Shown here: positions 35,640 to 60,967 of the stretch, in pieces
How the letters are laid out: each line of letters starts with the position of its first letter
Position numbering within the stretch: position 1 is the stretch's first letter
Source of the DNA: Microvirga ossetica
GTDB taxonomy: Bacteria; Pseudomonadota; Alphaproteobacteria; Rhizobiales; Beijerinckiaceae
NCBI RefSeq assembly: GCF_002741015.1
Contig: NZ_CP016616.1
Coordinates: forward strand, 355,501 to 419,500
Reading direction: 5' to 3'
Length of the DNA stretch: 64,000 bases
Position numbers and translations under genes: made by a program
The notes under the pieces: generated by a model
Database searches by the model: none
Told to the model about the DNA's origin: nothing
Seen by the model: the letters and a program-made list of their open reading frames with translations, nothing else

Positions 35640-35993
35640 GCCAGTTTTCCACATTCTTAACAATCTTCCACTATATATAGTTGGAACAGAGAGCCACGAC
35701 ACTAGTTCTTGACGTAAGGCTCGCAACACGACTAGCTTGCCGGGGTACCGATCAGAGACCGGCAACCGACCCGAAAGGGACGGTTGGAACCTCCCCAGAG
35801 TAAGCGTCAGAGCTCCGTGGCAACGAGATTGCCGCGCGACCTGTGGCGTCTGCAGGAGGCCGTAACTCGGCGGTTACGTGTGGCGATCCGAAAGAACGGG
35901 TCGTTGGGGCGTCGAACAATAATTTGGGCTGATGAGCTGCGGGGCAAATCGCGGCCACGGAGACGTTTGTCTCCGATACTTAGGAATGTGACA
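35640..35993 (+). promoter_or_regulatory. nrdJ: Long structured leader of nrdJ (candidate cis-regulatory RNA)
   Basis: About 350 bases before the nrdJ start contain no gene but several strong hairpins in a row: CAACCG-A-CCC-GAAA-GGG-A-CGGTTG (35763-35786), CGTAAC/GTTACG (35861-35878), CGATCCG/CGGGTCG (35884-35903, one G-U pair) and CGGAGAC/GTCTCCG (35958-35975) just before the ribosome site TAGGAA. An AT-rich promoter-like stretch lies at about 35640-35685. The layout suggests a structured RNA that controls translation. I could not match the conserved B12-box of adenosylcobalamin riboswitches. Confidence 0.55.
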
Positions 35994-38900
35994 ATGCGGA
36001 TCGAGCGGCGTTATACCAAAACCGGACAATCGCCTTATTCCTCCCTCGCCTTCCGGCTCGCCACGAGCGAGATCCGCAATCCGGATGGCTCGGTCGTCTT
36101 CAAGCTCGAGAACATCGAGGTGCCGGAGACCTGGAGCCAGGTGGCCTCCGACGTGCTGGCCCAGAAGTATTTCCGCAAGGCCGGCGTCCCGGCCCGCCTG
36201 AAGAAGGTCGAGGAAAACGACGTCCCCTCCTGGCTGTGGCGCTCCGTGCCCGACGAGGCGGCGCTCGCATCCCTCCCCGAGGACCAGCGCCTCGGCTCCG
36301 AGATCTCCTCCAAGCAGGTCTTCGACCGCTTGGCCGGCTGCTGGACCTATTGGGGCTGGAAGGGCGGCTACTTCTCCTCCGAGGAGGATGCCCAGGCCTT
36401 TTATGACGAGCTGCGCTTCATGCTCGCCAACCAGATGGTCGCGCCGAACTCGCCGCAATGGTTCAACACCGGCCTGCACTGGGCCTACGGCATCGACGGC
36501 CCCGGCCAGGGCCACTATTACGTGGATTACAAGACCGGCAAGCTGACCAAGTCCAAGTCGTCCTACGAACACCCGCAGCCGCATGCCTGCTTCATCCAGG
36601 GCGTCGAGGACGACCTGGTGAACGACGGCGGCATCATGGACCTGTGGGTGCGCGAGGCGCGCCTGTTCAAGTACGGCTCCGGCACCGGCTCCAACTTCTC
36701 CAAGCTGCGCGGCGAGGGCGAGAAGCTCTCCGGCGGCGGGCGCTCGTCGGGCCTCATGAGCTTCCTCAAGATCGGCGACCGGGCCGCCGGCGCGATCAAG
36801 TCGGGCGGCACCACGCGCCGCGCGGCGAAGATGGTCGTGGTCGACGTCGATCACCCGGATATCGAGAGCTATATCGACTGGAAGGTGAAGGAAGAGCAGA
36901 AGGTCGCGGCGCTCGTCACCGGCTCCAAGCTCGCCGCCAAGCACCTCAAGGCCATCATGAAGGCCTGCGTGAATTGCGAGGCCGAGGGCGATGCCTGCTT
37001 CGATCCGGAGAAGAACCCGGCTCTGAAGAAAGAGATCAGACAAGCCCGCCGGGTCATGATCCCGGACAATTCCATCAAGCGCGTCATCCAGTTCGCCAAG
37101 CAAGGCTACACCGAGATCGACTTCCCCGTTTACGACACGGATTGGGACTCGGAAGCCTACCTCACGGTCTCAGGCCAGAACTCCAACAACTCCGTCTCGC
37201 TCACCGACGACTTCCTCCGGGCCGTCGAGAGCGATGCCGATTGGCACCTCACCGCCCGCAAGGACGGCAAGGTCGTGAAGACCCTCAAGGCCCGCGACCT
37301 GTGGGAGCAGATCGGCCATGCCGCCTGGGCCTCGGCGGATCCGGGCCTGCACTTCAACACCACCATGAACGACTGGCACACCAGCCCCGCCGGCGGACGC
37401 ATCCGGGCGTCGAACCCCTGCTCGGAATACATGTTCCTGGACGACACGGCGTGCAATCTGGCATCGGCCAACCTGCTGCAGTTCTTCGACCGGCAGAACC
37501 ACAAGTTCGACGCCGAGTCCTTCGAGCATGCCTGCCGCCTGTGGACGGTGGTGCTCGAAATCTCGGTGATGATGGCGCAGTTCCCATCGAAGGAGATCGC
37601 GCAGCTTTCCTACGAGTACCGCACGCTGGGCCTCGGCTTCGCGAACATCGGCGGCCTGCTCATGACCATGGGCCTGCCCTACGATTCCGACGCCGGCCGT
37701 GCCCTCGGCGGCGCGCTCACCGCGATCATGACCGGCGTGTCCTATGCCACCTCCGCCGAGATGGCGGGCGAGCTCGGGCCCTTCCCGAACTACAAGGCCA
37801 ACGCCAAGCACATGCTGCGCGTGATCCGCAACCATCGCCGCGCGGCGCATGGCCTGTCGGATGGCTATGAGGGCCTCGCCGTCAACCCGGTGCCGCTCGA
37901 TCACGCCTCCTGCCCCGATCAGGATCTCGTCGTCCATGCCAAGTCCGTCTGGGACCGCGCCCTGGAACTCGGCGAAAAGAACGGCTACCGCAACGCGCAA
38001 TCCACCGTCATCGCGCCCACCGGCACGATCGGCCTCGTGATGGATTGCGACACCACCGGCATCGAGCCCGACTTCGCGCTCGTGAAATTCAAGAAGCTCG
38101 CCGGCGGCGGCTACTTCAAGATCATCAACCGGGCCGTGCCCGATGCGCTGCGCGCGCTCGGCTACCGCGAATCCGAAATCGCCGAGATCGAGGCCTACGC
38201 GGTCGGCCACGGCTCCATGAAGCAGGCTCCCGCCGTCAACCCCGGCTCGCTTCGCTCCAAGGGTTTCTCGGACGAGAAGATCGACGCGGTGGAGAAGGGC
38301 CTGAAATCGGCCTTCGACATCAAGTTCGTCTTCAACCGCTGGACTCTCGGCGAGGATTTTCTGACCGGCACGCTCAAAGTCCCGGCGGAAAAACTCAACG
38401 ATCCGTCCTTCGACCTGCTCACCTTCCTCGGCTACTCGAAGGCCGACATCGAGGCCGCGAACATCCACATCTGCGGAGCGATGACTCTTGAGGGAGCACC
38501 CTTCCTCAAGACCGAGCATTACGCGGTGTTCGATTGCGCCAACCCGTGCGGCAAGATCGGCAAGCGCTATCTCTCGGTCGAGAGCCACATCCGCATGATG
38601 GCGGCCTCGCAGCCCTTCATCTCGGGTGCGATCTCCAAGACCATCAACATGCCCAACGACGCCACCGTCGAGGATTGCAAGAACGCCTACATGCTGTCCT
38701 GGAAGCTGGCGCTCAAGGCGAACGCCCTCTACCGCGACGGCTCCAAGCTCTCGCAGCCGCTGAACTCCGCCCTCATCGCCGATGAGGACGAGGATGCGGA
38801 GGATGCCGCCGAGACCCTGGCCGCCCTCCCCGCCGCGGCAAAAGCGGCCCACGTGTCGGAGAAGATCGTCGAAAAGATCGTCGAGCGCGTGGTCGCCATG

Positions 38901-39701
38901 CGCGACCGCGAAAAGATGCCCGACCGCCGCAAGGGCTACACCCAGAAGGCCGTCGTCGGCGGCCACAAGGTGTACCTGCGCACCGGCGAATACGACGACG
39001 GACGCCTCGGCGAGATCTTCATCGACATGCACAAGGAAGGCGCCGCCTTCCGTGCGATGATGAACAACTTCGCCATCGCCATCTCGCTCGGCCTGCAATA
39101 CGGCGTGCCGCTCGAGGAATACGTGGAGGCCTTCACCTTCACGCGCTTCGAGCCGGCGGGCTTCGTCCAGGGCAACGAGCGCATCAAGAGCGCGACCTCG
39201 ATCCTCGACTACGTGTTCCGCGAGCTCGCGGTCTCGTATCTCTCCCGCAACGACCTCGCCCATGTCGATCCGTCGGAAGCAGGCCCCACCACCATCGGCT
39301 CGGGCGAAGCCCAGTCGAAGGCGCCGGAGCCGGCGCCTGCCACGGCCATCGTCTCCCGCGGCTTCGTGCGCGGCAATTCCGACCGCCTCATGCTGATCCC
39401 CGGCGGTGGTGGCAGCGCCACTGGCATTGGTCAGCGCTCACCCGGTCTGACGGTCGGCGCGAACGCGCTCAAGGGCGAGCTCGCCCCGGCCGCCGCAGCC
39501 GTCGAGGAGACGGTGGGCGAAGCCGAGATGTCCAAGCTCGCCTTCGCCGCCCCGGCCCCGTCCATGGCCGACAAGCGCGCCGAGGCCAAGATGAAAGGCT
39601 ATGTCGGCGAATCCTGCCCCGAATGCGCCAACTTCACGCTGGTGCGAAACGGGACGTGCTTGAAGTGCGATACGTGCGGTGGGACAACCGGGTGCTCTTG
39701 A
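35994..39701 (+). CDS. nrdJ: Vitamin B12-dependent (class II) ribonucleotide reductase
   Basis: Makes deoxyribonucleotides using adenosylcobalamin, with or without oxygen. The 1,235-residue protein begins [17 protein letters not shown]. The core has [40 protein letters not shown], the active-site region [35 protein letters not shown], and a C-terminal zinc ribbon with redox cysteines ([10 protein letters not shown]…[14 protein letters not shown]). The ATG at 35994 with TAGGAA upstream fits; the ORF is open 70 codons further up but only through the structured leader. It is the last core gene before the accessory island. Confidence 0.97.
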
Positions 39702-40019
39702 TTATTCCGAGTGTTTGTCTGTTGTGACGTGACCCAAAGTTTGTCCGCTGCGAGCGACAGTGCGTCCGCAAATCGACGCATAGTTCGCCCGCAGCGGGTG
39801 AACGCCGGAACACCCTTGCAATAGGCTGTCCGGGTTCCGTCCGAGCCTCTCAACAATTCTTCTGGGCGGCGTTCGTGCCTACGATGCCGCCCCCTCCCCA
39901 AGCTATGAACCACCAGGGCTGATGGGCGCTCTTGGCGCGCGTCAACTGGTTACTCGAACAAACGATGAACAGCCTGGCCGTTAGGACGAGGTCCCGGCCG
40001 GGCTTGAAGGATTCGGCAA
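39702..40019. other. Junction between core genome and accessory island
   Basis: 318 bases with no gene, tRNA or recognisable attachment repeat. The last bases give AAGGATT, a usable ribosome site for the first island gene. The promoter of the four-gene operon should lie here. Confidence 0.5.
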
Positions 40020-41156
40020 ATGACAGTGACTTTGACCTTCCACCCGCTCAACAACGCTGACTCGACGCGCATCGACCTGAAGGATGGCCGCAAGCTTCTC
40101 GTCGATTACGCCGACATGCGTAACCCGAACGACGCCGCGGATCCCTGTATCGATCTTCCCACCGCCCTTCGGAACGACCTCCGGGCCAAAGCGCGCGACT
40201 ACTTCGACGTCGTCCTCTTCACCCATCTGGACGCGGACCACACGATGGGCGCCGGCGACTTCTTTCATTTCGAGCGGTGGACCAGCTACCAGGGTAACGG
40301 CCGCATCAAGATGAAAGAGCTCTGGGTTCCGGCGGCTGCCCTCACTGAGGAAGGATGCGAAGGCGATGCCAAAATCATCCGGCAGGAGGCTCGTCATCGC
40401 TTCATCCAGGGCAAGGGCATCCGTGTGTTTTCCCGACCAGGGCGCCTGCGCAAATTCTGTGAGGACAATGGTATCCGCCTCGAAGGTCGTCTCCATCTGA
40501 TCACGGACGCCGGCAAGCTAGTGCCTGGCTTTGACGACCTCAACGCCGCTGGGGGTGTTGAGATCTTCATTCACAACCCTCTGGCATGGCGTCTCAATGA
40601 CCGTGAAGTCGAGGAGAGGAACGAGGATGCCGTCGTCTTTCAGGCCGTATTCCGCGAGGGCATGACCGACACCAAAGTCCTGTTCGCCTCCGACGTCAAT
40701 GCGGACACACTGAGCCACATCGTGCAGACCTCAAAGCGGCATAAGAACGAGGATCGTCTCCGCTGGCATGTTTTCAAGATCCCGCATCACTGCAGCTACA
40801 AGTCGTTGAACTGCAACGACAAGGGCGTCGATAAGACCACCCCTATTGAGGATGTGCGCTGGCTGTGTGAGGAGCAGGCGGAGCCCCGCGGGATCATGGT
40901 TTCCACGAGCGAGATCAATCCCGGAAAGGGTTCTGAGCGCGACAAGAACGTCCGTCCCCCACACCGACAGGCCGCTGCCTATTACGAAGACGTCGCGGCC
41001 GAGGTGGACGGCCAGTTCGAGGTCACGATGCATCACTCCCCGCGTCGTAATCCGAAGCCCTGCCAGGTGTCCATTACGACCGCTGGCGCGTCGTTTGTCG
41101 CCACCGCGGCGCTCCCGTCTGACTACGTAGCGGCCACTCCGATGAGGGCTGGTTGA
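40020..41156 (+). CDS. MBL-fold (ComEC-like) hydrolase, first gene of the E2-E1-JAB operon
   Basis: A 378-residue metallo-beta-lactamase-fold protein. The metal motif LFTHLDADHTMG gives H69-x-D71-x-D73-H74, the HxDxDH form common in ComEC/Rec2-like members; ASDVN (Asp near 225) and IPHHCSYKSL (His near 256) fit the later metal ligands. There is no signal peptide, so it should act in the cytoplasm. Its TGA overlaps the next gene's ATG by one base. Operons joining MBL-fold proteins to E1/E2/JAB proteins have been predicted before from comparative genomics; the substrate is not known. Confidence 0.82.
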   Translation: MTVTLTFHPLNNADSTRIDLKDGRKLLVDYADMRNPNDAADPCIDLPTALRNDLRAKARDYFDVVLFTHLDADHTMGAGDFFHFERWTSYQGNGRIKMKELWVPAAALTEEGCEGDAKIIRQEARHRFIQGKGIRVFSRPGRLRKFCEDNGIRLEGRLHLITDAGKLVPGFDDLNAAGGVEIFIHNPLAWRLNDREVEERNEDAVVFQAVFREGMTDTKVLFASDVNADTLSHIVQTSKRHKNEDRLRWHVFKIPHHCSYKSLNCNDKGVDKTTPIEDVRWLCEEQAEPRGIMVSTSEINPGKGSERDKNVRPPHRQAAAYYEDVAAEVDGQFEVTMHHSPRRNPKPCQVSITTAGASFVATAALPSDYVAATPMRAG

Positions 41157-43444
41157 TGGCACCTCAATCTCTCGACGACGTTTTCGGCCCCCCTCTCGAA
41201 ATCGATGCGCTGTCGCATCCCCGCGCGATTGCGGTCGCGCGGCTGCTCCGTGATGGTGACACACAGGGGTATCGTCTGATCGAGGCTCGGCGCGCTCTTG
41301 GGGGCGCTGAGGCTCTCATTGTCAGGGTGCATGTCGACCGGCCGCAGCAGTTCGTTCATCCCCTCAAGGCTGTCGAGCCTTTGGCGCTTCGCTTCGAGGC
41401 CCAGGACCTGCCTGGCGTGTTCTCGATCCGCGAGGATTTTCCGCCTGCGCCCCACTCGTGCACTGGCTCGCCGTCCGATCCACTGTACCTCTGCATTGAT
41501 GACCGACCCTGGAGCGAAGCTCGGCTGAGTTGGACGCCAAGCGACTTCCTGGTTCGGATCCAGAATTGGCTCGCCATGACCGCGCGGGGCCAATTGCATG
41601 GACAGGATCGCGCTCCGTATCCGCTTTTTGCCAGTCTCGGCCCCATTGTTGTGCTTCCGCGCAGTGTGTTGGCGCGCGTCTCGGAGGAGCCGGTCGGGCT
41701 CTCCCTCTACCGGGTTGAAGCGGAGGCGCAGCGTGAGGTTCTCCTCGCGACCACAGGCCCAGTGCCGAAGGGCTTCAACCGGGTTCCCATGATGGTGCTT
41801 GGATTGGGTGTTCCCCCGCAGCATCAAGGGCAGATCAGGTTTCCACCCCGGACCTTGGGCGAGCTCGTCGACCTGCTCTCTCCGCTTGGGGTGGACCTCA
41901 TCTCTGAACTCCGGAAACGGATCTGGGCCGAGATGGGGCAGGCACGGGATAGCGCTCCCATCAGCGATAGGCCTCTGAGTGCCAGGCTCGGCGTGATCGT
42001 CGCGTTCCCAATGCAGGACGAGGCGGGATCGACAACGGCTGGCACAGACCTCCGGGGCTTCTTCTCGCGCTCTACCGTCGCGGAAATCGGCGAAAGCATC
42101 GGCTGCTTGGAAAAATCACCTGACGGCGTTTATGGGCGGCTTCTCTTCTCCAGCTCGACCGGCCCGCTGGACCATGATCTGATCCCGGGCGAGCTGCACA
42201 TCGGCTACGACCGCGAATTGGCGACCATCGTCTCAGGTCGAGAGAGCATTGACCAACGCGCCGTGGTGATGGTTGGCGCGGGCGCCGTCGGCTCGCACGT
42301 TGCCAGCTTCCTCGCGCGAGAGGGGATGTTCTCCTGGACCGTGATCGACGACGATCACTTCCTCCCCCACAACGCCGTGCGCCACGTCCTTTACCCAGAG
42401 GCCGTCGGAATTTCGAAGGCTCGGGCTCTTGCATCGACCCTCGACGAGATCCTCGCCGTCACCGACACCCGTTACGTCGTAGCTAACGCGCTGGGCAACG
42501 GGCCGAGGCATGAGGAGGTTCAAGCGGCGCTCGCCTCCTCCGAACTGATCTTCGATGCTTCCGCATCAATAACTGTCAGCCGGCATCTCTCTGCAGGCGC
42601 TCCATCTGCCGTTCGCCGCATGTCGTTCTTTTTCAACCCGGATGGGACCGACGCCGTCCTCCTTGTGGAGCCCGCTGATCGCCAATCCACCCTGCGCGAC
42701 TTGGAAGCCCAGCACTATGGAATGGTCGTGCAGGATCCGCACCTCATCAGTCACTTGCGGATGACGGAGGAGCGCATCGCCTATTCCGGAGCGTGCCGAC
42801 AAGCCACGAACCGGATGCCCGAGACGCGTGTCGCAGCGCTCTCGGCAGCAATCGCCATGGGGGTCAAGGAAGCCCTCGACGGCGACGATGGGGCCGTCAC
42901 AGTCTGGCGCCTTGCGGACGGCGGGATGCATTGCATCCGAGCTCACGCCGTCAAGTGGCATCGGTTCGATGTGGGAGGTTGGAGCCTGTCGCTTTCCTAT
43001 GACCTGAAGGCCGTGCTCGAAAGCCGTCGGCAGCAAGCGCTCCCGGCCGAAACCGGGGGCGTCCTGCTTGGTGTCGTCGACATGGAGGCCCGCACGATCC
43101 ACGTGTGCTCGGCACTGGACGCCCCCGAGGACAGCAAGGGAGACCCGGCCGCATTCGAGCGCGGCATCGCCGGCCTTCGCGAGAAGATCGGCCACGCCTC
43201 TGCGGAAACCGGAGGTCAGCTCACTTATGTGGGCGAGTGGCACTCCCACCCCGCAGGTCACCCCACAACCCCAAGCCTGACGGACCTCTCCCAACTTGGT
43301 GAACTGGCCCGCGTTCTCGACATGAACGGGCTGCCCGGCGTCATGGCCATCGTCGGAGACGACGGTATCCGGATCCATACGGCCGGCCTGCTCGGTGGCG
43401 ACGAGCCCTTGGTCATCATCAATGCCACCGGAGCAGTGCAATGA
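41156..43444 (+). CDS. E2-like / E1-like (ThiF) / JAB peptidase fusion protein
   Basis: The 762-residue protein joins three steps of ubiquitin-type chemistry. Residues about 1-155 look like a prokaryotic E2: SIREDFPPAPH then LYLCIDD with the probable catalytic Cys113, followed by a helix ending NWLAMTARGQLH. Residues about 360-600 are an E1/ThiF adenylation domain: VMVGAGAVGSH (GxGxxG at 374-379), VIDDDHFLPHNAVRH, and a likely thioester Cys547 in YSGACRQATNR. Residues about 612-750 are a JAB/JAMM protease: Glu632, HSHP (696-699), Ser707 and Asp710. Residues 160-360 are unassigned. Type II CBASS splits these roles between Cap2 (E2-E1) and Cap3 (JAB). I use the ATG at 41156. Confidence 0.85.
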   Translation: MAPQSLDDVFGPPLEIDALSHPRAIAVARLLRDGDTQGYRLIEARRALGGAEALIVRVHVDRPQQFVHPLKAVEPLALRFEAQDLPGVFSIREDFPPAPHSCTGSPSDPLYLCIDDRPWSEARLSWTPSDFLVRIQNWLAMTARGQLHGQDRAPYPLFASLGPIVVLPRSVLARVSEEPVGLSLYRVEAEAQREVLLATTGPVPKGFNRVPMMVLGLGVPPQHQGQIRFPPRTLGELVDLLSPLGVDLISELRKRIWAEMGQARDSAPISDRPLSARLGVIVAFPMQDEAGSTTAGTDLRGFFSRSTVAEIGESIGCLEKSPDGVYGRLLFSSSTGPLDHDLIPGELHIGYDRELATIVSGRESIDQRAVVMVGAGAVGSHVASFLAREGMFSWTVIDDDHFLPHNAVRHVLYPEAVGISKARALASTLDEILAVTDTRYVVANALGNGPRHEEVQAALASSELIFDASASITVSRHLSAGAPSAVRRMSFFFNPDGTDAVLLVEPADRQSTLRDLEAQHYGMVVQDPHLISHLRMTEERIAYSGACRQATNRMPETRVAALSAAIAMGVKEALDGDDGAVTVWRLADGGMHCIRAHAVKWHRFDVGGWSLSLSYDLKAVLESRRQQALPAETGGVLLGVVDMEARTIHVCSALDAPEDSKGDPAAFERGIAGLREKIGHASAETGGQLTYVGEWHSHPAGHPTTPSLTDLSQLGELARVLDMNGLPGVMAIVGDDGIRIHTAGLLGGDEPLVIINATGAVQ

Positions 43445-44604
43445 ACCTTCCGATCCCTAACCCGCGTCCGAAGTTGGGTTTGGCCCTCTCAGGTGGCGGT
43501 ATCAGAGCTGCGGTGTTTCATCTGGGGGTCCTCCGTCGATTGGCGGAGGAAAACCTGCTGGAAAGCGTTTCTCATCTCTCGACTGTCTCAGGCGGGAGCC
43601 TCGTGACGGCGGCTATCTTCGCGCACTCCGAGTGGGTGTGGCCAGCGTCTGTGGCCTATCGCTCTGAAGTCTATCCAAAACTCCGAGACCTCCTGACCTC
43701 TCGGGACCTATTCAGCTTTGCGGCCGTTGGCTGGCTCGGCGCGGTCCGACACAGTCACCGCGTCGCCTTCAATCGCGCCGATCTGCTTGCAAGGCTCCTC
43801 GAAAGCAGTTGGGGGATCACTGCGATGCTTTCGGACCTTCCGGTCCACCCGATCTGGGCGATTAACACGACCTGCATCGAGACAGGCAAAAATTGGAGGT
43901 TCTCCCAGCGAGAGATGGGTGACTGGACCTTTGGGAGGCACTACAACCCTTCCTACAAGGTCGCCGCGGCTGCTGCGGCTTCGGCAGCCGTGCCCTACGC
44001 CATTGGCGCTCTTGCGTTCGATCTCCCATCGGAGGGCTGGCACCGGACTGATCCGGCCACGAGGACCCCACTCGCGAAAACAACTCCTGCAATGCCGCGG
44101 GTACGCTTGTGGGACGGAGGGGCTTACGAGAACCTGGGGCTGGAGTTCCTCTATAAGCCGGGCGCACAACTGAAGGAGTGCGACCTGTTGATCTGCAGCG
44201 ATGCGTCGGGGCCCCTACGTCCGCCGGTTGGATTGCTGCAAAGACTTCGCCCAGAAGGGCTCTCGTCCCCCAGGCTGTTTAATATTGCCAGCGATCAAAT
44301 CCGCGCGCTGCGGTCTCGGATGCTGGTCCGAGACTTCGAGGCCGGAACCATTCGAGGGGCGCTCATCAAAATGGGCAACTCGGTGCGCGATATCGACATC
44401 CAGGTCAAACGCGGCCGCGACGACTACGACCTTTACCTCTCGGACGAGGAAAGCCGGCTCGCGCTCACGCATCCCACCGATCTGAAGGCTCCCTCAAAGG
44501 ATCTCTTCGACCGGATCGCCCGTCATGGCTTTGAGGCTGCCGATGCGACCCTTTCGGTCCGCCTTCCTACCGAGTTCCCCCAACCCTATGCCTGGTCAGC
44601 CTGA
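43441..44604 (+). CDS. Patatin-like phospholipase
   Basis: The 387-residue protein has the patatin oxyanion loop SGGGIRAAVFHLGVL (GGGxR at 18-22), the nucleophile elbow STVSGGS (Ser50; the first G of GxSxG is Thr), and the catalytic Asp in WDGGAYENLGLE (DGG at 225-227). Patatin-like enzymes release fatty acids from membrane lipids and serve as cell-killing effectors in CBASS (CapV). Here the gene follows the E2-E1-JAB gene with an ATGA overlap, which suggests an effector role. No signal peptide is seen. Confidence 0.9.
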   Translation: MNLPIPNPRPKLGLALSGGGIRAAVFHLGVLRRLAEENLLESVSHLSTVSGGSLVTAAIFAHSEWVWPASVAYRSEVYPKLRDLLTSRDLFSFAAVGWLGAVRHSHRVAFNRADLLARLLESSWGITAMLSDLPVHPIWAINTTCIETGKNWRFSQREMGDWTFGRHYNPSYKVAAAAAASAAVPYAIGALAFDLPSEGWHRTDPATRTPLAKTTPAMPRVRLWDGGAYENLGLEFLYKPGAQLKECDLLICSDASGPLRPPVGLLQRLRPEGLSSPRLFNIASDQIRALRSRMLVRDFEAGTIRGALIKMGNSVRDIDIQVKRGRDDYDLYLSDEESRLALTHPTDLKAPSKDLFDRIARHGFEAADATLSVRLPTEFPQPYAWSA

Positions 44605-45560
44605 TGAGAAGCATCACAACCCGTTTCCGTGCGTATCAGTTGGGATGCTCGGGTTCGTCGTTCTCCTTCTTCGCGGGGGGACATTTCACCGTTTTGGAGG
44701 CACGCCTGACAGCGCAGAGCCGACCATCTCTCGTCTATGAGATGCAACGTTGCGGGTTGGACGGTGCCGATACATTGCATATAACGAGCTGGGACACCGA
44801 CCACTGCAACCATTGTGAGCTTGAGGATCTCCTCAACCTCATCCACCCAGCCAAGATCGAGTGTCCCGGCTACGAACCCTACTCGGAGTCCGCCAAGAAG
44901 TCCTTGAAGACCATTGAAAACTACCGCATCAGCCGGCGCTTCTCCAATCGCGGGACAGAGATCCGCGCTATCACCCCGGCGTACATCTCAAGCCTCTCAA
45001 AGGCCGAAGAACTCGCCTTCCGGGATACCTTCTACAATCCGAAATGGATCGACCTGAATTGTGCGAACAACAACTCGACGGTGAAGCATTTTCGGGGAGG
45101 AAGCTTCAACGTTCTGAGCCTGGGCGATGTTGAGGATCACCGGATCTCAGCCCGTCTCAGACGGGGGCGGATCCTGAAAGAACAAACCGATGTAATGATC
45201 TTGGCCCACCACGGGGCCGACAATGGGTTTACCAATAAAGATTTCATAGCCCGGCTTCGTCCGAAGCTGGCTATCTGTTCCGCTGACTATGCCAATCAAT
45301 ATGACCACCCGCGTCAAGAGATACGGGATCTTCTCTTTGATTACGGCGTCCGTCTGATGACTACAAAGACCGGGGACATTATTGTTAAATCCATTGGTGA
45401 CCACACAGGACACTACCGAGCCATCAATCTCAAAGGAAACTCGAAGGAAATTTCCTCAAGCTGTGATTTTAGATCAAAGAAGGCACAGCTCCTTTCTTTT
45501 AACGAGGATACCATCCGACAGAGGATGATGCCGCGACCTCACTATCTGAATCTCCGGTAG
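44604..45560 (+). CDS. Second MBL-fold protein of the operon
   Basis: A 318-residue MBL-fold protein, starting on the last base of the patatin stop codon. The metal motif reads ITSWDTDHCNH, so the usual first histidine is Ser62, followed by Asp64, Asp66 and His67. LGDVED and LAHHGADNGF supply the later ligands. The fold resembles the first gene's product but the sequences differ widely. The missing histidine could mean a one-metal site, altered chemistry or a non-catalytic partner. The lower-GC 3' end and loose C-terminus differ from the upstream genes. Confidence 0.75.
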   Translation: MRSITTRFRAYQLGCSGSSFSFFAGGHFTVLEARLTAQSRPSLVYEMQRCGLDGADTLHITSWDTDHCNHCELEDLLNLIHPAKIECPGYEPYSESAKKSLKTIENYRISRRFSNRGTEIRAITPAYISSLSKAEELAFRDTFYNPKWIDLNCANNNSTVKHFRGGSFNVLSLGDVEDHRISARLRRGRILKEQTDVMILAHHGADNGFTNKDFIARLRPKLAICSADYANQYDHPRQEIRDLLFDYGVRLMTTKTGDIIVKSIGDHTGHYRAINLKGNSKEISSSCDFRSKKAQLLSFNEDTIRQRMMPRPHYLNLR

Positions 45561-45901: not shown

Positions 45902-45968
45902 CCCACGGCCGAGGGTAGAAACTCGTGTGTCGCCGAACACTGGAGCTGGCCGTGGGATAATCTACCCT
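45902..45968 (-). other. Possible H-type pseudoknot at the 3' end of the HNH operon
   Basis: Two crossing complementary pairs: CCCACGGCC (45902-45910) with GGCCGTGGG (45948-45956), 9 bp, and AGGGTAGA (45912-45919) with TCTACCCT (45961-45968), 8 bp. The order A-B-A'-B' allows a pseudoknot or two alternative hairpins. The last pair touches the HNH gene's TAA. It could be a 3' stability element or terminator. Confidence 0.4.
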
Positions 45969-46897
45969 TACAAGCAGTGCTTTGCCCGGTGCTTCGCCAG
46001 GAAATACGGGTCGGGGTGAAGAGCTCGATCCTGCGGCAAGAGAATCTGTCTCTCCCGCTCACCGATCAGGCCGCGAAGCTCCGGCGGCACCTTGTTATGT
46101 GAAAGGATCAACGAATAGTCGGCTCGAATGCCGATCAGGCCCCGGTCGAACATCCAGTGGAAGGTTTGGCTTAGGGCAATGCCGTTCTGGACCATGTCCG
46201 GCCCACCGTCCTCCACCGCCCAGATGTGAGCGGCATGTACCTCGGGACGACCACCGCCGTTCCGGATCTCCAGCCCTGTGACGGCGCACCGATAACCATA
46301 GGCTTCCCGCACATTCAGGCGGAACATAGCGTCTCGCACCGAGCGATTGATGAGGTACTGCTCAACGCGTCGCTCGCGCTCGCCAGGAGCAAGGCGTAGG
46401 AGTTCTCCTGTCTCCGGATCCCGCAGGGCGTCGTCCAGATCATGCAGTGCCACCTTGGACTGGTCAAAGAGCTCGCCGAGACCTGCAATCACAATGTGGG
46501 CGAAATCCTGAGCCGGTAGGCCTCGAATTGAGTTCTGCAGCAGTCCCTTGGCGCTGGACGGGTGCTTAATCCGACTCTCCCAGTAAGTGCCATCGGGGCG
46601 CCGGAGTGGCACTGGGCGCTGGAACGGCAGGAATTGGTCAACGAGCGCGAAGTAGTGGTCTGAGAGTCCGGTCTCGTCGTCTGGGACAACCTTCAGCACC
46701 CGAGCTGTGGCAAAGTAAATATTGCGGCCACGGCCTTTGTCGGCACGCCGGGGCTCGTAATAGACAATCCGCTTGCCCACTGACATCCGGGCGGGTTTCA
46801 GGAGCTGCTCGGAGAAATGATACCGCTCCTCGATTCGATCCTTGTAAGATGTGCCCCGCGACGCATTGAAGGCTGCGTAGGGATAATCCGCCTCCAC
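45968..46897 (-). CDS. HNH endonuclease (HNH_2 type)
   Basis: A 309-residue nuclease. The C-terminal HNH domain is clear: YRCAVTGLEIR, then VHAAHIWAVEDGGPD and NGIALSQTFHWMFDRGLI. The N-terminal half (GKRIVYYEPRR…YFATARVLKVVPD…HYFALVDQF) has the strand pattern of a PUA/EVE/ASCH-like reader domain; this is inference. Enzymes joining such readers to HNH cut modified DNA. The likely start is a GTG at 46897 after GGGGGAG. It is the last gene of a three-gene operon with the helicase and the SEC-C protein. Confidence 0.82.
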   Translation of the reverse strand: MEADYPYAAFNASRGTSYKDRIEERYHFSEQLLKPARMSVGKRIVYYEPRRADKGRGRNIYFATARVLKVVPDDETGLSDHYFALVDQFLPFQRPVPLRRPDGTYWESRIKHPSSAKGLLQNSIRGLPAQDFAHIVIAGLGELFDQSKVALHDLDDALRDPETGELLRLAPGERERRVEQYLINRSVRDAMFRLNVREAYGYRCAVTGLEIRNGGGRPEVHAAHIWAVEDGGPDMVQNGIALSQTFHWMFDRGLIGIRADYSLILSHNKVPPELRGLIGERERQILLPQDRALHPDPYFLAKHRAKHCL

Positions 46898-46946
46898 TTT
46901 CTCCCCCGATCTTTGCCCAAGGAGCCCGAACTCCGTTAGAGGGGCA

Positions 46947-49127
46947 TCAACGGACGCCCTCTTTCAACAGATGGCATCTCTTGTATTTGAGTCGGCTGCC
47001 ACAATAGCAGGGATCGTTGCGCCCTATCTTGCGCTTTCTCGCCCCACTAATGGATTTCAAGATGTCCTCTATTGGTTTTGGCGTCGCCATCTTCGCTGTG
47101 GCTGCATCCATTGCGGCATCATGCTGCCAGGGATAATTGAGCATCAGACCGAAGCGGACGGCTCCATCACCCGGTCGGATAACAAGTCCAGACCAAGTGC
47201 TTGCCTTGACGCTGTACTTGCGGCGTTCGCAATGGCGTTTGAGTTGTGGCCCTGCGGTCTCGTCAGGCATCGCATTGCAATGGACCGTAATCCCACTGCC
47301 TTCTTCTCCGTAGGTTATGGAGGCGTCGTGGTTCTTCCCATCTCTGGTGGCGTCAGTCACGATTTTGTCGATCAACCGGCTCAATGTATTCGCGCTATCG
47401 CCGCTGAGCTTAAGGAGTTCGAGGCCGATGCCGATTGCTCCAGGGTCGGAGCGATTTTCGATCTCCTCGATGAGGCGACCGATGGCTGTACCCTTTAGTT
47501 CCGTCATAATCCCAGGAGGGTCCTTTTCGCCGGGAATACCCTGACGCCGGGCCGCCATCGCTATGTCCAGATCAGCGGAAATGTCATCTTGCAACGCTAT
47601 GAAGTCGTACTCACCGAGCCAAAGGTTTTGCTTGAGGTGGAAACCCAGAGCCACGATCTCATGGCTGAGACTGACATTGTTGGCGGCTTTCGCCCGCAAT
47701 TCGAGATAGCTGAGAAGGCGAAGCGGTGTTTCCAGAAACTCGGTCACGACGTCGATAAAGAACACGTCGCATACGAGCGGCTGCTCGATGTGGTCGACCG
47801 GATGGAAGGAAAGGAATTGCTGGGCTTGGAAGCTCAAGGCCGGGTAATGGTCGGAGACGACGCAAACGGGATGGATCTTTCTCAGAACCCCGGCGAGCTT
47901 GACCTCGCCGCCTGAACGCTCAGCAAGGAACGAGGTTCCCGCGAGCAGATGCTGACTGCAAAGGACCGCCTGGTCGCATGCCTCTTGGACGGCAGCCTTG
48001 AAATCCTTCTTCAGTTGGAGATCATTACCTTTGCGGGCTTCCAGCGTCAGTTTCTTCGACTTGGCCTGGACGACAATGGCACGGTCACCAAACAACACCA
48101 ACGCATCAATTTCACCAAGCTTCTTCTTGCGCGCGCTGGTCTCCCAGAGATCGACATTAAGTAAAACCTTGTCGGCACCGAACACGCGTTGCAGGCGCGC
48201 CGCGGTGAACTCTTCGGTGAAACCACCTCGATTCTCCGTTGCGATGCTCGCGTAAGTTTTGTCGCGGATCATCCAGTAGAATGGCGTGTCGTACAGGGCC
48301 TCTGCCAAGCTCACATAAAGAAACAGGATGCGGTTATTACCGTCGGCTTTAAGGATGGGGTACCCGTTGACGGCATTGAACTCATTGAACGATGTGAAGG
48401 TCGGGTTGCCATCTTCCGGGCATGTAAACGCATCGACAACGGCACTGACCGTTGCTTCCGGCAAGCCTGATTTTGCCGTGAGATCATTGATGGTAAATTG
48501 GAATCCCGGAAGGAAGATCCACGTTTCCGGCCAGATCTTGTTCATGCCCTGCAATGTCTTGGCTAGATTGTCGTTCAGGAAGTCCTCAAGCGCAGAAACA
48601 ATTTTTCGTGCTTCATCTGGTGTAAAGCCTTTGTTTTCCCTGAACCACTCTTCGTCGCGAGCATACCTTTCGACGGACAGGTCGCGGTACTGAAAGCTAT
48701 ATGCAGACTCGGCACTGTAGAAGATCGACTCCCGTAGAACCTCTGCATTGGCAAATGGATTGAAATTCTCGGCACCACTGGGATCCGTAATCGCTTTCTG
48801 GAATTCAGCTTTGATGGGCTCTCCGAATGCCTCTTGTAGCTCCTTCAGGAGGGCTTCGGTGCGCTCGATATAATTTTCCAGCGTCTTCATACCGGGGACC
48901 GTCAGATCGCGCGGCGCGCGAACCATTAACCCGATGAGGGTTGTCATCTCGGTGCGAATAAGCCGCCCAGGTGAGAAGAGTTGCGCGTAATCATCGCCTT
49001 GGAGGGCTTCGCCATAGCCTACAACATGATCGCGGAAGCAGAGATAGGCTATTGCGTGCGCGTATCCCGGGCTGGCACATAGTTCAGCCAAGTCATTGAA
49101 GATCTCCTGTTCTGCACGCGCAGTCAT
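46947..49127 (-). CDS. SEC-C motif protein with a restriction-like (NERD/PD-(D/E)xK) core
   Basis: The 726-residue protein begins MTARAEQEIFNDLAEL at an ATG preceded by GGTGGAG. The middle (about residues 300-390) has GFTEEFTAARLQRVFG, GEIDALVLFGDRAIVVQAKSKKL and further helices. That E-x-D…QxK pattern is that of NERD and related PD-(D/E)xK nucleases. The C-terminus carries a SEC-C zinc motif, GRNDPCYCGSRLKYKRCH. The first 280 residues are helical and unrecognised. It lies 54 bases after the helicase and 49 before the HNH gene, so the three should be one operon. Nuclease activity is inferred. Confidence 0.75.
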   Translation of the reverse strand: MTARAEQEIFNDLAELCASPGYAHAIAYLCFRDHVVGYGEALQGDDYAQLFSPGRLIRTEMTTLIGLMVRAPRDLTVPGMKTLENYIERTEALLKELQEAFGEPIKAEFQKAITDPSGAENFNPFANAEVLRESIFYSAESAYSFQYRDLSVERYARDEEWFRENKGFTPDEARKIVSALEDFLNDNLAKTLQGMNKIWPETWIFLPGFQFTINDLTAKSGLPEATVSAVVDAFTCPEDGNPTFTSFNEFNAVNGYPILKADGNNRILFLYVSLAEALYDTPFYWMIRDKTYASIATENRGGFTEEFTAARLQRVFGADKVLLNVDLWETSARKKKLGEIDALVLFGDRAIVVQAKSKKLTLEARKGNDLQLKKDFKAAVQEACDQAVLCSQHLLAGTSFLAERSGGEVKLAGVLRKIHPVCVVSDHYPALSFQAQQFLSFHPVDHIEQPLVCDVFFIDVVTEFLETPLRLLSYLELRAKAANNVSLSHEIVALGFHLKQNLWLGEYDFIALQDDISADLDIAMAARRQGIPGEKDPPGIMTELKGTAIGRLIEEIENRSDPGAIGIGLELLKLSGDSANTLSRLIDKIVTDATRDGKNHDASITYGEEGSGITVHCNAMPDETAGPQLKRHCERRKYSVKASTWSGLVIRPGDGAVRFGLMLNYPWQHDAAMDAATAKMATPKPIEDILKSISGARKRKIGRNDPCYCGSRLKYKRCHLLKEGVR

Positions 49128-49181
49128 AATTATCTCCACCTTTCCGATGCACGCATAGCTTCGCTTAACGTGTGGAGGAAT

Positions 49182-52100
49182 TTAACGAGACTTGGATACT
49201 TGAGAGCGGGGCAGCAGCCGCGCCATCTCGCTGAAGTTCGGGATTCCCGACCAGGCGCCGTATGATCCGACCACATAGAGGTTCTGCTTCGCTCGCGTGA
49301 CGGCCACGTTGAGGATGTTGGGTCCCGAGCCGGCCCATCTCCTCGCGCCATGCTGGCCCGCGTTCGGAGCGCCGAGCAGGAGGATCACCGTCTCGGCCTC
49401 GCGGCCTTGGAAGGTGTGGATCGTGCCGACGCGATCGCGTGCCCACTCGTCGGGCTGTGCCTGAAACGTCGAGAAGATGTCCCGCTCTCGTTCGAGCCGC
49501 CGGCGCATCTCCTGCTCGACGATCTTGAACGGGGTGATCACGAAGATGTCCGGCGACGTGATGCCGGCTGCGGCGACCGCTCTCAGCATCCGGACGACGA
49601 TCTCGCCCTCGTCGGGACACCACTTGGTCTCCGCCGTCCCGTCGATGTCGAACCAGCAGGATTGGCCCAGCAGCCTGCCGACTGGCCCAGGATCCTTCGG
49701 TTTCGGGGCATGCACCATCTCGCCGGCATAGGCGATCTCGTTGGAGATCCTGAACATGGGATCCTGGCAGCGGCGATGCACCAGCAGCGGCACCCCGACA
49801 GTCCGCCTGCCCTGGTCCGAACTGAAAGACGCCTTCGTCTTGGAGGCCTTGTCCGCGAGCGTCTGGGCGGAGGCGATCGGCGCCGCCCATTCGGCCATGT
49901 CGACCTTGAAGAACGTGCATATCTCGGCGGTGAGGCGGTCGGGCAGCGAGACCACCGGCGGGATCTGGAGCGGATCTCCGACAACGATGGACCGCTTCGC
50001 CCGCATGATCGCCCCGATGGCAGCCTGCGGCAGCGCCTGACCGGCCTCGTCGATCAGAAGCCACCCCAGACTACCCGGCTTCAGGTCGCCGAGCATCCGG
50101 TCGACGGACGCGAACGTGGTCGACACGACCGGGATGACCATGAAGAGCGTAGACCACAGGTCGCCCAGCAGCGCCTTCTTCTCCTCCGGGAACGCACCTG
50201 CCGTGAAGGCGCTCATCAGGGCACCCAGGTTATGCTGCACCTTCTGGGCCGAGGCGTCGACGAACGCCTTCTGGACCTCCAGGGCAGCCATGAAGAGTTC
50301 CTCGCGCTTGCGCTGGAGGGCGTCAGGCAGCCACGGAGCCGTCAGGTGGATCTTCTCGTGATCGCCGCCGAAGAAGCCTTGGTCGATGAGCCTGTCCTCG
50401 ATCTCCGCCCGGCCCATGTCGACCGTCTGCCAGAGCCTGGATACGAGATCCCTCTGGCTTGCTAGGTCCTTCGCCGAGGCCGAGACTCTGCTGGCCAAGG
50501 CGTCGGAGACGGCTCGGGCGTCGGCCTTCGCCCTCTCTGCTGCTGCTGCCCTTGCCTGGGTTCCCTTCGTGCGATCGGCAAGTTCCTTCGCCTCCCTCGA
50601 CCACGCCTTCCAGCTGGCAGTGCCGAACAGGCGTGCGAAGAATCCAGGGCGCAACAGGGTATGGCTTGCCTGGGCGGTCTCCTGGCGCCTGACCTCATCG
50701 GCCAGCTTCGCGTGTTCGGAGGTGTGCGCATCGAGCACGCGTCTAGCATCCGCACCCTGCCGCTCAAGCGCTGCGTGCTGCTCCTCGAGCTTGGCAAGCC
50801 TGTCGCGCTCTCCGGGCAGACGTTGGCAGGTAGCCCGAAGCTCCTCCAGGCGCTTGAGCTGGGCCTCGATCTCCCGCTTCAGTGCCCTGAACCGGGATCT
50901 GGCCTTGCGCCAGCATGCAGCGGCCGCATCTCCGGATGCCGGCTGCTCCCGGACGACCACCTCGGGCGTGCGCCGTTCGATCACCCGGTCCGTGACGGGA
51001 TCCTTGATCTCGCGGACGGCGGACTCTCCCTTGGCGGCCTTGAGATAGACGCGGAAGCCGAACTCCTCGTCCCACCAGAACTTCTGCTGGAAGGCGGCCC
51101 GGTTCTTCGCGTTCCCGAGCACGGCGGCGATCAGACCCCAGGTTTCGACGGCCTTGATGTCGGAATCCACATCGTCGTCATCGAGCCCGACGGAGTTCGC
51201 GAGGCGGTTGCTGATCGAGCGGAAGTAGGTGACCTCGGTTGGCCGGCCGAACTCCTTCTTCAGGGGCAGCTCGCGGCTGACGTTCTCAACGGCCTTGTTG
51301 TTGCTCGACGCAACCAGGATCTCATGCCCCTTGAGGCTGGGATCAAGCCGGTAGAGGTGGAGGAAGGCGTTGCCTCCGACTGATAACTTCTGTCCCGAGC
51401 TGGTGAAGGCTGAAGCCGGATCATCGAACCGCACCATGGCGGCGGCACGGTCGACGACGCAGCTTGCGACCAGGTCGCGCAGCAGCGTGGTCTTTCCGGT
51501 TCCCGGCGGGCCGTTGACGCCCATGATGCCACCGCCGCCTCCAAGCTCGGACCGAGCCAGGTTCACGGCAGCCTGCTGGAGCAGCACGAGCGGGTGACCA
51601 CCCGGTGACGGCCAGCGCGACGGAGGCATCTGGGCCGGGGCGACCGCAGGCTCGATGAGCTTCAGGTCGGCGAGGACATCCTCGGTCTTGCCGGGATGCT
51701 CCATGCCGAGGTAGCGCCGCAGGCCCGGACCGGAGTTGCCGTTGCCTACGAGTTCGGACGCCCGGGCGAGGTCGGCCAGGAAGAAGGAGTTCAGGAGTGA
51801 GGCCTCCGGCGGCGTCTTGGACTTGTAGTAGTGATAGACCCGCAGGGCGAATGTCGGCTTCTCGACGAGGTGTGCGGGAAGCTGGAACTGGGCGACGAGC
51901 CAATCGTGCGCCCGCCGGACGGTGGCCAAGTCCAGCGGCAACGGCTTCCCGTCGGGATCCTTGCGCCGCACGATCTGGTCGACACGGTCGAGCAGGGTCC
52001 GTTCGACTCGCGGCCATGCACCGAGCCCCCCGAGATTGAGCTTCAGAGCATGCGGCAGGGCCCATACGAAGGAGGACACGGCGATGGCGTTGTCCTCAAG

Positions 52101-52838
52101 CACGAAGCCGTCCTTGTCCACCAGCACGGCTGCGATCGCCGCCTTCTCCCGCTCCCGTCGGCTGCGCTCCTCGTCGGTCCCGAAGGCCTTCATGAGCTCA
52201 TCGGTCGCCCGGTCCATCGCGATCGCCCCGAGGATCACCTGATAGTAGAGCTTCTTGTTGGGACGTGAGCGCTCGCCCGTACCCCACGGCACCTGGCCGG
52301 TAGTCAGTTCGGCAACGCACCGGCGATCCCCCGCAGCCAGATCCTCCGGCTTTCGGTAGGTTTGGGGAGACAGGGCTTCCAGAGCCGTCCATGCAGCGAG
52401 CAGGGCCCGTGGTTCGTTAGCGCCCCTGGGACTCGGAAACGTGGGCAGCGGCCCCAGGTCCTCTGTCGGAGGAGTTGCCTGTTGCCTCGGCGTCTCACGT
52501 GGTTCTGCCGGCTTGTGCGAGCGCAGTTCGCCGGCGGGTGGTTCAGGTGCCGAACGACGTGGAAAGGGCAGCAGGATTGCGCTCGGCGACGGCTCCGGTG
52601 CCGCCCTCCGGGGCGTCGAGTGCGGCGATCCTGCGGCTACTTCGGCCTGGACCTCGGCGCTCCTGAGATGCAACAAAGCGTCATCGACCTCGACCGCCAG
52701 ATCCCTGGCCTTAGGCACGTTGCGGTGCTCCAGCTCATCAACCAGTGCTTCCAGGACCGCACGATGTCCGCGGGAAGCCTCGAACAGCGCTTTGAGTTCA
52801 GTGATCTTCTTCTGGAAGTACGGTCGTTGCCCCGGCAT
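49182..52838 (-). CDS. Large SF1 (Upf1/Dna2-like) helicase
   Basis: The 1,218-residue protein has an unrecognised N-terminal third with a proline-rich linker (about residues 65-140). The helicase core is split: Walker A GVNGPPGTGKTTLLRD (near 440), a long coiled-coil insert (about 630-800, rich in Arg/Glu/Ala heptads), then Walker B LLIDEAGQALPQAAIGA (near 929), VGDPLQIPPVV, RVGTIHTFQGREAETVIL (near 1132) and NVAVTRAKQNLYVVG. This is the COG1112-like class that recurs in defence islands, where it usually accompanies nuclease genes, as here. It is the first gene of the operon. Confidence 0.9.
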   Translation of the reverse strand: MPGQRPYFQKKITELKALFEASRGHRAVLEALVDELEHRNVPKARDLAVEVDDALLHLRSAEVQAEVAAGSPHSTPRRAAPEPSPSAILLPFPRRSAPEPPAGELRSHKPAEPRETPRQQATPPTEDLGPLPTFPSPRGANEPRALLAAWTALEALSPQTYRKPEDLAAGDRRCVAELTTGQVPWGTGERSRPNKKLYYQVILGAIAMDRATDELMKAFGTDEERSRREREKAAIAAVLVDKDGFVLEDNAIAVSSFVWALPHALKLNLGGLGAWPRVERTLLDRVDQIVRRKDPDGKPLPLDLATVRRAHDWLVAQFQLPAHLVEKPTFALRVYHYYKSKTPPEASLLNSFFLADLARASELVGNGNSGPGLRRYLGMEHPGKTEDVLADLKLIEPAVAPAQMPPSRWPSPGGHPLVLLQQAAVNLARSELGGGGGIMGVNGPPGTGKTTLLRDLVASCVVDRAAAMVRFDDPASAFTSSGQKLSVGGNAFLHLYRLDPSLKGHEILVASSNNKAVENVSRELPLKKEFGRPTEVTYFRSISNRLANSVGLDDDDVDSDIKAVETWGLIAAVLGNAKNRAAFQQKFWWDEEFGFRVYLKAAKGESAVREIKDPVTDRVIERRTPEVVVREQPASGDAAAACWRKARSRFRALKREIEAQLKRLEELRATCQRLPGERDRLAKLEEQHAALERQGADARRVLDAHTSEHAKLADEVRRQETAQASHTLLRPGFFARLFGTASWKAWSREAKELADRTKGTQARAAAAERAKADARAVSDALASRVSASAKDLASQRDLVSRLWQTVDMGRAEIEDRLIDQGFFGGDHEKIHLTAPWLPDALQRKREELFMAALEVQKAFVDASAQKVQHNLGALMSAFTAGAFPEEKKALLGDLWSTLFMVIPVVSTTFASVDRMLGDLKPGSLGWLLIDEAGQALPQAAIGAIMRAKRSIVVGDPLQIPPVVSLPDRLTAEICTFFKVDMAEWAAPIASAQTLADKASKTKASFSSDQGRRTVGVPLLVHRRCQDPMFRISNEIAYAGEMVHAPKPKDPGPVGRLLGQSCWFDIDGTAETKWCPDEGEIVVRMLRAVAAAGITSPDIFVITPFKIVEQEMRRRLERERDIFSTFQAQPDEWARDRVGTIHTFQGREAETVILLLGAPNAGQHGARRWAGSGPNILNVAVTRAKQNLYVVGSYGAWSGIPNFSEMARLLPRSQVSKSR

Positions 52839-60497: not shown

Positions 60498-60967
60498 TGG
60501 TCCGCCCATCCGTTCTTCCCATTATCCTACCTGTGCTCGAGCCGTACCTCGAGGTGAAGCATCGGGAATTCCTCAACGCTGGTAGTAAAACCCCCACCCT
60601 GCCCGGCACGGCTGACGGCAAAGTGAACGTCCGCCATCTTGTCCGCGACCTGATGCGGTTAGATTCGGCGATCCTTGATAGCCATGAGCAGCACTTCTTC
60701 CGGAAAAAAGAGCTGTACGATCGAGTCGATAGAATTGCTGAGGAGCAAGGGCTGAAAGCAATTGGAAGCCGCTCCGACGACGAGGACCAGGATGCCGCCC
60801 GTAAGAGGATTAGTATGATCGGTCGGGAGACGTCTGACTTGCGCCAGAGCCTCGCGGAACGAGAGGCTCTAATCGAGAGCCTGCGGCGGGAGAATGCAGG
60901 CCTGAGGGAGCGGCTGGGCCTCGTCGAGGAGACTGGAATGATCTTTCGGACTGAGGATCCAACATGA
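60497..60967 (+). CDS. Small coiled-coil protein in the recombinase operon
   Basis: A 156-residue protein whose ATG overlaps the upstream TGA. The N-terminus reads VRPSVLPIILPVLEPYLEVK; the C-terminal half is a charged coiled coil (SLAEREALIESLRRENAGLR). Its stop overlaps the helicase start (ATGA). Family not recognised. Tight coupling suggests it forms a complex with the RecD-like helicase or the recombinases. Confidence 0.65.
   Translation: MVRPSVLPIILPVLEPYLEVKHREFLNAGSKTPTLPGTADGKVNVRHLVRDLMRLDSAILDSHEQHFFRKKELYDRVDRIAEEQGLKAIGSRSDDEDQDAARKRISMIGRETSDLRQSLAEREALIESLRRENAGLRERLGLVEETGMIFRTEDPT

Follow-up and report, generated by a model that had tools for sequence, protein, structure and literature searches.

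Four open reading frames on the forward strand fill the operon in the window, by which the whole stretch of 64,000 nucleotides that was analysed is meant (Table 1). The gene for the first protein, MBL1, shares 1 base with the fusion gene behind it (4 bases if the TTG start is used), the fusion gene shares 4 bases with the patatin gene, and the patatin gene shares 1 base with the gene for MBL2. This agrees with the original prediction that four genes overlapping by 1-4 bases form one operon. Scans of the whole window for tRNAs and Rfam families were empty.

Table 1. Genes and features at the locus, in positions of the window
Feature	Position	Strand	Remarks
nrdJ-like ribonucleotide reductase, core gene	35784..39701	+	just 5' of the operon; its 3' side is the slot holding the operon
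MBL1 (6A-MBL enzyme)	40020..41156	+	378 aa, ComEC-like metallo-beta-lactamase fold, C-terminal tail ends Arg-Ala-Gly
MBL1 flexible tail, residues 363-378	41106..41153	+	last codon Gly directly before the stop; proposed conjugation tail
E2-E1-JAB fusion	41156..43444 from ATG (41153 from TTG)	+	762 aa (763 from TTG)
Patatin-like phospholipase	43441..44604	+	387 aa, catalytic Ser50/Asp225, proposed membrane-damaging effector
MBL2, ComEC-like MBL protein, incomplete metal site	44604..45560	+	318 aa, accessory gene

The second gene encodes a single polypeptide with Pfam matches to Prok-E2_A, ThiF and Prok-JAB above the gathering scores, in this order at residues 61-159, 352-479 and 625-735. The PADLOC models for E1-E2 and JAB also matched. 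Residues 18-598 correspond to Cap2 and residues 599-761 to Cap3 of type II CBASS (VIA comparison), and BubCD structures were among the weaker structural matches. The E2, E1 and JAB folds expected of the 762-residue protein were thus found to be real by Pfam and by the match to Cap2/Cap3. The residues that had been named as catalytic were all present and were invariant across 49 aligned homologues: the E2 cysteine Cys113, glycines G374, G376 and G379 in the E1 adenylation site (374-379), the E1 cysteine Cys547, and E632, H696-S697-H698-P699, S707 and D710, which include the JAB site Glu632/His696/His698/Asp710. Residues D398, D400, R409, K421 and D467 were invariant in the same 49 rows. By structure prediction, the fusion is Cap2 joined to Cap3 in one chain with the catalytic residues kept.

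Both of the first two proteins scored far above the cut-offs of NCBIfam models for a named system. The fusion reached 602.9 bits with NF058523, "anti-phage 6A-MBL system cap2_3 protein" (cut-off 320), and MBL1 reached 378.1 bits with NF058524, "anti-phage 6A-MBL system MBL-fold protein" (cut-off 220). We take PMC1779556 to be the work of Iyer and colleagues from 2006. Operon type 6a in that source is a triple module of E2, E1 and JAB that almost always stands beside a metallo-beta-lactamase, usually as two genes (PMC1779556, Table 1, row 6a). The window shares with it the one-chain E2-E1-JAB protein beside a specialised MBL, and on the sequence evidence the first two genes are the known 6A-MBL core, for which the NCBIfam model names predict an anti-phage role. 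The kinship with predicted defence operons that had been proposed for the locus was therefore confirmed. In contrast to the window, type 6a is given as usually two genes, and the word patatin is absent from the main text of PMC1779556. The patatin and MBL2 of the window exceeded no NCBIfam cut-off, and the same was true of all related patatins, 4-TM proteins (described below) and MBL2 proteins tested. No experimental paper on this operon was found in the literature that could be reached, outside which most subscription journals and preprints lie, and neither "lactamase" nor "MBL" is used in the main text of PMC10449767, PMC11354881, PMC9122588 and PMC11153139.

MBL1 gave only sub-threshold lactamase matches in Pfam. 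Its metal ligands H69, D71, D73, H74, D225 and H257 were kept in all 38 aligned rows, and its C-terminal tail was disordered in the structure model. Taken together, sequence and model describe MBL1 as a ComEC-like predicted hydrolase with metal ligands and a free, disordered tail that ends in a conserved Gly. This conserved tail was absent from the original prediction. The pattern [RK]xG with no more than 10 residues after it was found in 75 of 75 counted MBL1 tails (77 loci, 2 dropped), Gly being the last residue in 60 of them, and in 118 of 119 database relatives of MBL1 among the matches listed. Other proteins of these loci carried the same pattern in 6 of 79 cases for the fusion, 6 of 55 for the patatin, 1 of 12 for the 4-TM protein and 4 of 12 for MBL2, which as a control is a small set (n = 12).

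The pattern was written after the tails had been seen, so fresh samples of tails matter, and the clade with xHG tails, which keeps the Gly only, serves as such a test. A family sample provided 17 operons other than that of the window. Sixteen of their MBL1 tails end in Gly, 4 of them as RAG or RQG and 12 as xHG; the odd one out, L181, has a broken frame. Because L175, L176, L181 and L183 of this sample look like genomes L010, L023, L022 and L025 of the first set, about 13 of the 17 are new. A further 18 MBL1 loci were taken from plasmids, viral contigs and other genomes, two of which (L112 and L134) are also among the 17. RAG or HG was present near the end in 15 of the 18, with 0-5 residues following RAG in 11 tails and 0-7 residues following HG in 4. 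Two distant loci, L123 and L137, encode an MBL1 without the motif, in which a Gly stands 1-2 residues from the end. The Gly is thus kept while its neighbours change, as predicted for a conjugation tail, and on these alignments the conserved Gly points to MBL1 as the conjugated protein. Residues beyond the Gly could be removed by the JAB domain.

Individual loci depart from the usual form of the core. L131 (2823-4639), the remaining one of the 18 loci, comes from a plasmid of Roseomonas; there MBL1 is cut short by an overlapping gene for an IS5-type transposase, and the usual tail is lost. At L026 (8735-12217), MBL1 and E2-E1-JAB form one ORF of 1160 residues with RRG near the junction. This is possibly a natural fusion or an assembly error, and the one-ORF reading would hide the MBL1 tail. 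At L137 (2153-9198, reverse strand), the fusion profile matched two separate ORFs (6651-8138 and 3321-4241), the second of which is followed by a patatin gene. From its sequence, this locus, whose MBL1 lacks RAG or HG, reads as a split or decayed form. An extra JAB-like gene, which matched the JAB part of NF058523 at 44.8 bits, below the cut-off, and an extra MBL gene precede the core at L039 (6883-9953).

The closest comparison is with type II CBASS, where the conjugated protein was a surprise in being the cyclase itself and not of the ubiquitin fold (PMC10097602). At its C-terminus this cyclase carries a conserved Gly or Ala, and a phospholipase, CapV, serves as effector (PMC10097602). The operon in the window shares with this system an E2-E1 part that aligns along most of Cap2, a JAB part that aligns along Cap3, a partner enzyme with a conserved C-terminal Gly (here MBL1, as a prediction), and a phospholipase effector as in one CBASS version. 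It differs in that the partner is an MBL hydrolase and not a cyclase, that Cap2 and Cap3 are one chain, and that its patatin had no match among the PADLOC models up to E 0.1. None of the four proteins had an NTase match in Pfam, and the whole genome (G000) contained no match to the SMODS family or to PDLC00770; since a cyclase is lacking in these searches, the operon is not a member of type II CBASS. That the patatin might be fed by a CBASS cyclase encoded at another site in the genome was also considered; the SMODS search lent this no support.

Conjugation of E1/E2/JAB type is also found in Bub and Bil. Bub has a separate beta-grasp Ubl protein. Bil has one as well (PMC11354881). In the window, the four ORFs fill 40020-45560, and none of them has a match to a Ubl family in Pfam. 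An alternative use of the Cap2-like domains was weighed against this background. The MBL1 tail might be only a substrate of the JAB domain or an assembly signal, the Cap2-like domains conjugating a protein encoded by the host and MBL1 acting alone as sensor or effector. Tails that need cutting beyond the Gly, such as that of E. coli SE11 with four residues to remove, fit proteolytic activation as well as they fit conjugation, and the lack of the motif at L123 and L137 also counts in favour of this alternative. Most tails, however, end in Gly both in the first set and in the family sample, which leaves nothing to cut. The missing beta-grasp match and the related Cap2, which conjugates an enzyme of its own operon (PMC10097602), also speak against this alternative. 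We regard this alternative as unlikely, and conjugation of MBL1 itself is the reading followed below.

The third gene matched the patatin family PF01734 at 58.8 bits (cut-off 27.7). Among 33 aligned rows, D225-G226-G227 was invariant, and S50, the serine of the GxSxG motif, was conserved in 90% or more. Its place in the operon was compared among the nearest 80 of 247 loci, a choice by which the effector shares lean towards close relatives. A patatin gene adjoins the core in 53 of the 80 loci (directly downstream in 43, directly upstream in 8, and downstream on the other strand in 2), in line with the suggestion that it is a likely effector, and lies farther off in L048 and L075. When the longest ORF is taken, the patatin gene shares exactly 4 bases with the fusion gene in 20 of the 43 downstream cases. 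A second family occupies the slot in 14 loci. These are small homologous proteins with up to four predicted transmembrane segments (4-TM), two of the matches being weak (L062, and L057 on the other strand). The profiles found neither patatin nor 4-TM in 13 loci, five of which (L067, L076, L077, L078 and L079) have other transmembrane proteins nearby. Three Hymenobacter loci (L048, L056 and L075) have no effector in the operon and carry a convergent gene of about 790-830 residues behind the core, which in L056 has matches to SMC/ABC-type ATPases.

In a phylogeny of 80 fusion proteins, made up of that of the window and those of 79 loci after L064 was set aside, the patatin label required 15 changes, at least 9 of them forced by well-supported branches, compared with 22.2 in shuffles. 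The label is therefore clustered and yet switches often, which indicates that, as in CBASS, the slot is exchangeable. Among the 17 operons of the family sample, ten had the 4-TM protein (in L172 on the other strand) and five a patatin; of the other two, L134 carries a gene of 211 residues with two predicted transmembrane segments, and L178 is truncated where its contig stops. In the phylum sample, which has 7 members with the window counted, a patatin occurs in the window and L137, the 4-TM protein in L132, L133 and L135, and other transmembrane proteins in L134 and L136. On plasmid pGOX1 of Gluconobacter oxydans, the patatin gene overlaps the fusion gene. The "Goxy" among the organisms of the type 6a source is presumably the same species. 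As far as our searches show, the effector slot is widespread and is undescribed in the literature searched, and the patatin of the window is, from its sequence and position, the likely effector in it. That 4-TM can stand in for patatin suggests that both act by damaging the membrane.

The patatin and MBL2 might instead be a separate two-gene module that stands beside the 6A-MBL core by chance. At L037 the patatin-MBL2 pair lies on the strand opposite to the core, so the two genes may travel together, and the patatin gene precedes MBL1 in 8 of the 80 loci. A chance neighbour is difficult to reconcile with the 53 loci in which the patatin adjoins the core as against only 2 in which it is more distant, with the recurrent overlap of exactly 4 bases, and with an unrelated family, 4-TM, in the same place. 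A module joined by chance is thus distinctly unlikely, and we retain the patatin as the candidate effector of the core.

MBL2 is less tightly bound to the system. Its closest solved relatives are the MBL domains of ComEC (profile match, E 1.7e-29), and no Pfam match was obtained up to E 0.1. Its HxDxDH metal motif is incomplete in the window, where S62 replaces the first His, while D64, D66, H67, D175 and H203 were invariant in 18 rows. The claim that two MBL-fold proteins bracket the set accordingly stands in that both are ComEC-like, and must be qualified for MBL2 with its missing His and its lack of a Pfam match. Compared with the MBL nuclease domain of ComEC, both proteins lack the channel domain; MBL1 has in addition the Gly tail, and MBL2 lacks one metal ligand. 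A second MBL protein lies near 14 of the 80 cores; in the phylum sample, 4 of the 7 cores have one close by (window, L132, L133 and L135). As it is near only these 14 cores and in varying orders, MBL2 is an accessory and does not define the system, and a role as a required component was rejected.

These counts also bear on the novelty that the original prediction had seen in the set. The MBL and E2-E1-JAB core is already described and carries an NCBIfam anti-phage name, and its pairing with a patatin proved to be the commonest arrangement; what holds is that the full order MBL-E2/E1/JAB-patatin-MBL is rarer than the patatin pairing among the 80 loci. The search for this order in other genomes found it in L002 and L074, with MBL2 homologues in the last place; in L066 the patatin is followed by a second MBL that is more distantly related. 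L011, L013, L037, L039, L051 and L065 also hold both a patatin and an additional MBL, but in other orders.

The gene just 5' of the operon is, from its sequence, presumably nrdJ. A match to it was found in all 48 genomes of the genus that were searched, and DNA identity with all five relatives fetched ends at its stop codon. In one of these, G016, a SAVED-HNH effector and a CD-NTase (CBASS) directly follow the nrdJ-like gene; no such effector-cyclase pair was found in the other four, in each of which two genes were scanned. In G031 a cyclase lies 1.8 kb beyond the nrdJ-like gene. The 6A-MBL operon follows the nrdJ-like gene directly, or with a patatin between, in 5 of 18 operons of the family sample (window, L134, L174, L178 and L181). 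The same holds for 4 of the 62 first-set loci whose upstream sequence was long enough (L022, L028, L038 and L060), L022 and L181 looking like the same genome. Sites of the slot are 39701-40020 in the window, those in L134, L174, L178 and L181, and L152 1292-4050. From these arrangements, the 3' side of the nrdJ-like gene is a predicted slot for immune operons (6A-MBL and CBASS) in the window and some relatives, and a place to look for more of them in this bacterial group.

Presence of the system was patchy. The fusion exceeded the NF058523 cut-off in 2 of 48 genomes of the genus, and MBL1 exceeded the NF058524 cut-off in 18 of 397 genomes of the family and in 7 of 398 of the phylum. The only other genome of the genus above the cut-off (G005, locus L112) has an MBL1 tail with HG at its end and a 4-TM protein as effector; its operon belongs to a distant clade and is not a close copy of that in the window. 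A fusion relative was found in 198 plasmid records, 117 of them conjugative, and many Klebsiella and Escherichia plasmids were among the carriers. Spread by phages was not indicated by 50,697 phage records, which gave 0 matches up to E 1e-10, and only 4 loci, all distant, came from viral contigs. A WYL regulator is divergent to MBL1 in 10 of the 80 loci, and the same kind of regulator lies beside E. coli and Bradyrhizobium plasmid copies. In E. coli SE11 (L124, plasmid pSE11-2, 2033-6959), the core has two genes; the WYL regulator stands divergent to it, and past that regulator lies a small membrane protein. On this side of MBL1 the window has the nrdJ-like gene. The WYL proteins of the relatives received no NCBIfam name, so the term "CapW-like" rests on their position and WYL annotation.

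The operon could in principle serve housekeeping or stress repair and not immunity, MBL1 acting in nucleic acid repair and the patatin in lipid turnover. The resemblance of MBL1 and MBL2 to ComEC and RNase-type hydrolases would allow this, as would the WYL regulator that may occupy the control region in relatives, since the WYL family has links to DNA damage and also to defence against phages. The patchy presence, the variable slot shared with CBASS, the relatives on conjugative plasmids and the NCBIfam anti-phage name all speak against such a function, which we consider very improbable.

The best full explanation, to which we assign a probability of roughly 0.6 on the strength of sequence, structural models and analogy, is that the operon is a 6A-MBL immune system on the type II CBASS plan, in which an MBL-fold enzyme replaces the nucleotide cyclase. 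In this scheme, the E1 domain would adenylate the C-terminal Gly of MBL1, which would pass via Cys547 and Cys113 and then be joined to target proteins. The JAB domain would trim precursors that carry residues beyond the Gly and reverse the bond. Conjugation would prime MBL1, which may then sense or cut phage nucleic acid, or make or destroy a phosphodiester signal. The activated complex would switch on the patatin, and the resulting breakdown of membrane lipids would kill or arrest the infected cell. Of all the steps, the role of MBL2 is the least certain; it probably modulates or supports the action of the patatin. The wider proposal describes 6A-MBL as a sister of type II CBASS that has no cyclase. 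Here a ComEC-like MBL hydrolase would itself be the ubiquitin-like modifier, attached to targets by its C-terminal Gly ("MBL-ylation"), and would control effectors that attack the membrane and can replace one another (patatin or 4-TM), sometimes with a second ComEC-like MBL; we give this proposal slightly better than even odds. If it is true, the rule "conjugate the signalling enzyme itself" holds beyond cyclases, for an enzyme of unrelated fold. The tail evidence suggests that an enzyme of quite another fold may fill the role of the cyclase with the same Cap2/Cap3 machinery. What is real at this locus is an immune core that already has a name, a widespread effector slot and a conserved tail through which the mechanism can be tested. 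With donor, residue and effector named, direct tests become possible for a system known mainly from the arrangement of its genes.

Further genes of possible interest lie downstream in the window. Three possible defence genes occupy 45968-52838 on the reverse strand: an HNH protein whose match to phosphorothioate-DNA restriction enzymes is below cut-off, a NERD/SEC-C protein (NERD below cut-off), and an SF1 helicase of 1218 residues related to PADLOC MkoC. They are followed at 54545-59962 on the forward strand by three consecutive large ORFs, two of them with weak tyrosine-recombinase matches below cut-off, which resemble a recombinase trio. A RecD-like helicase at 60964-63201 comes after the recombinase-like ORFs.
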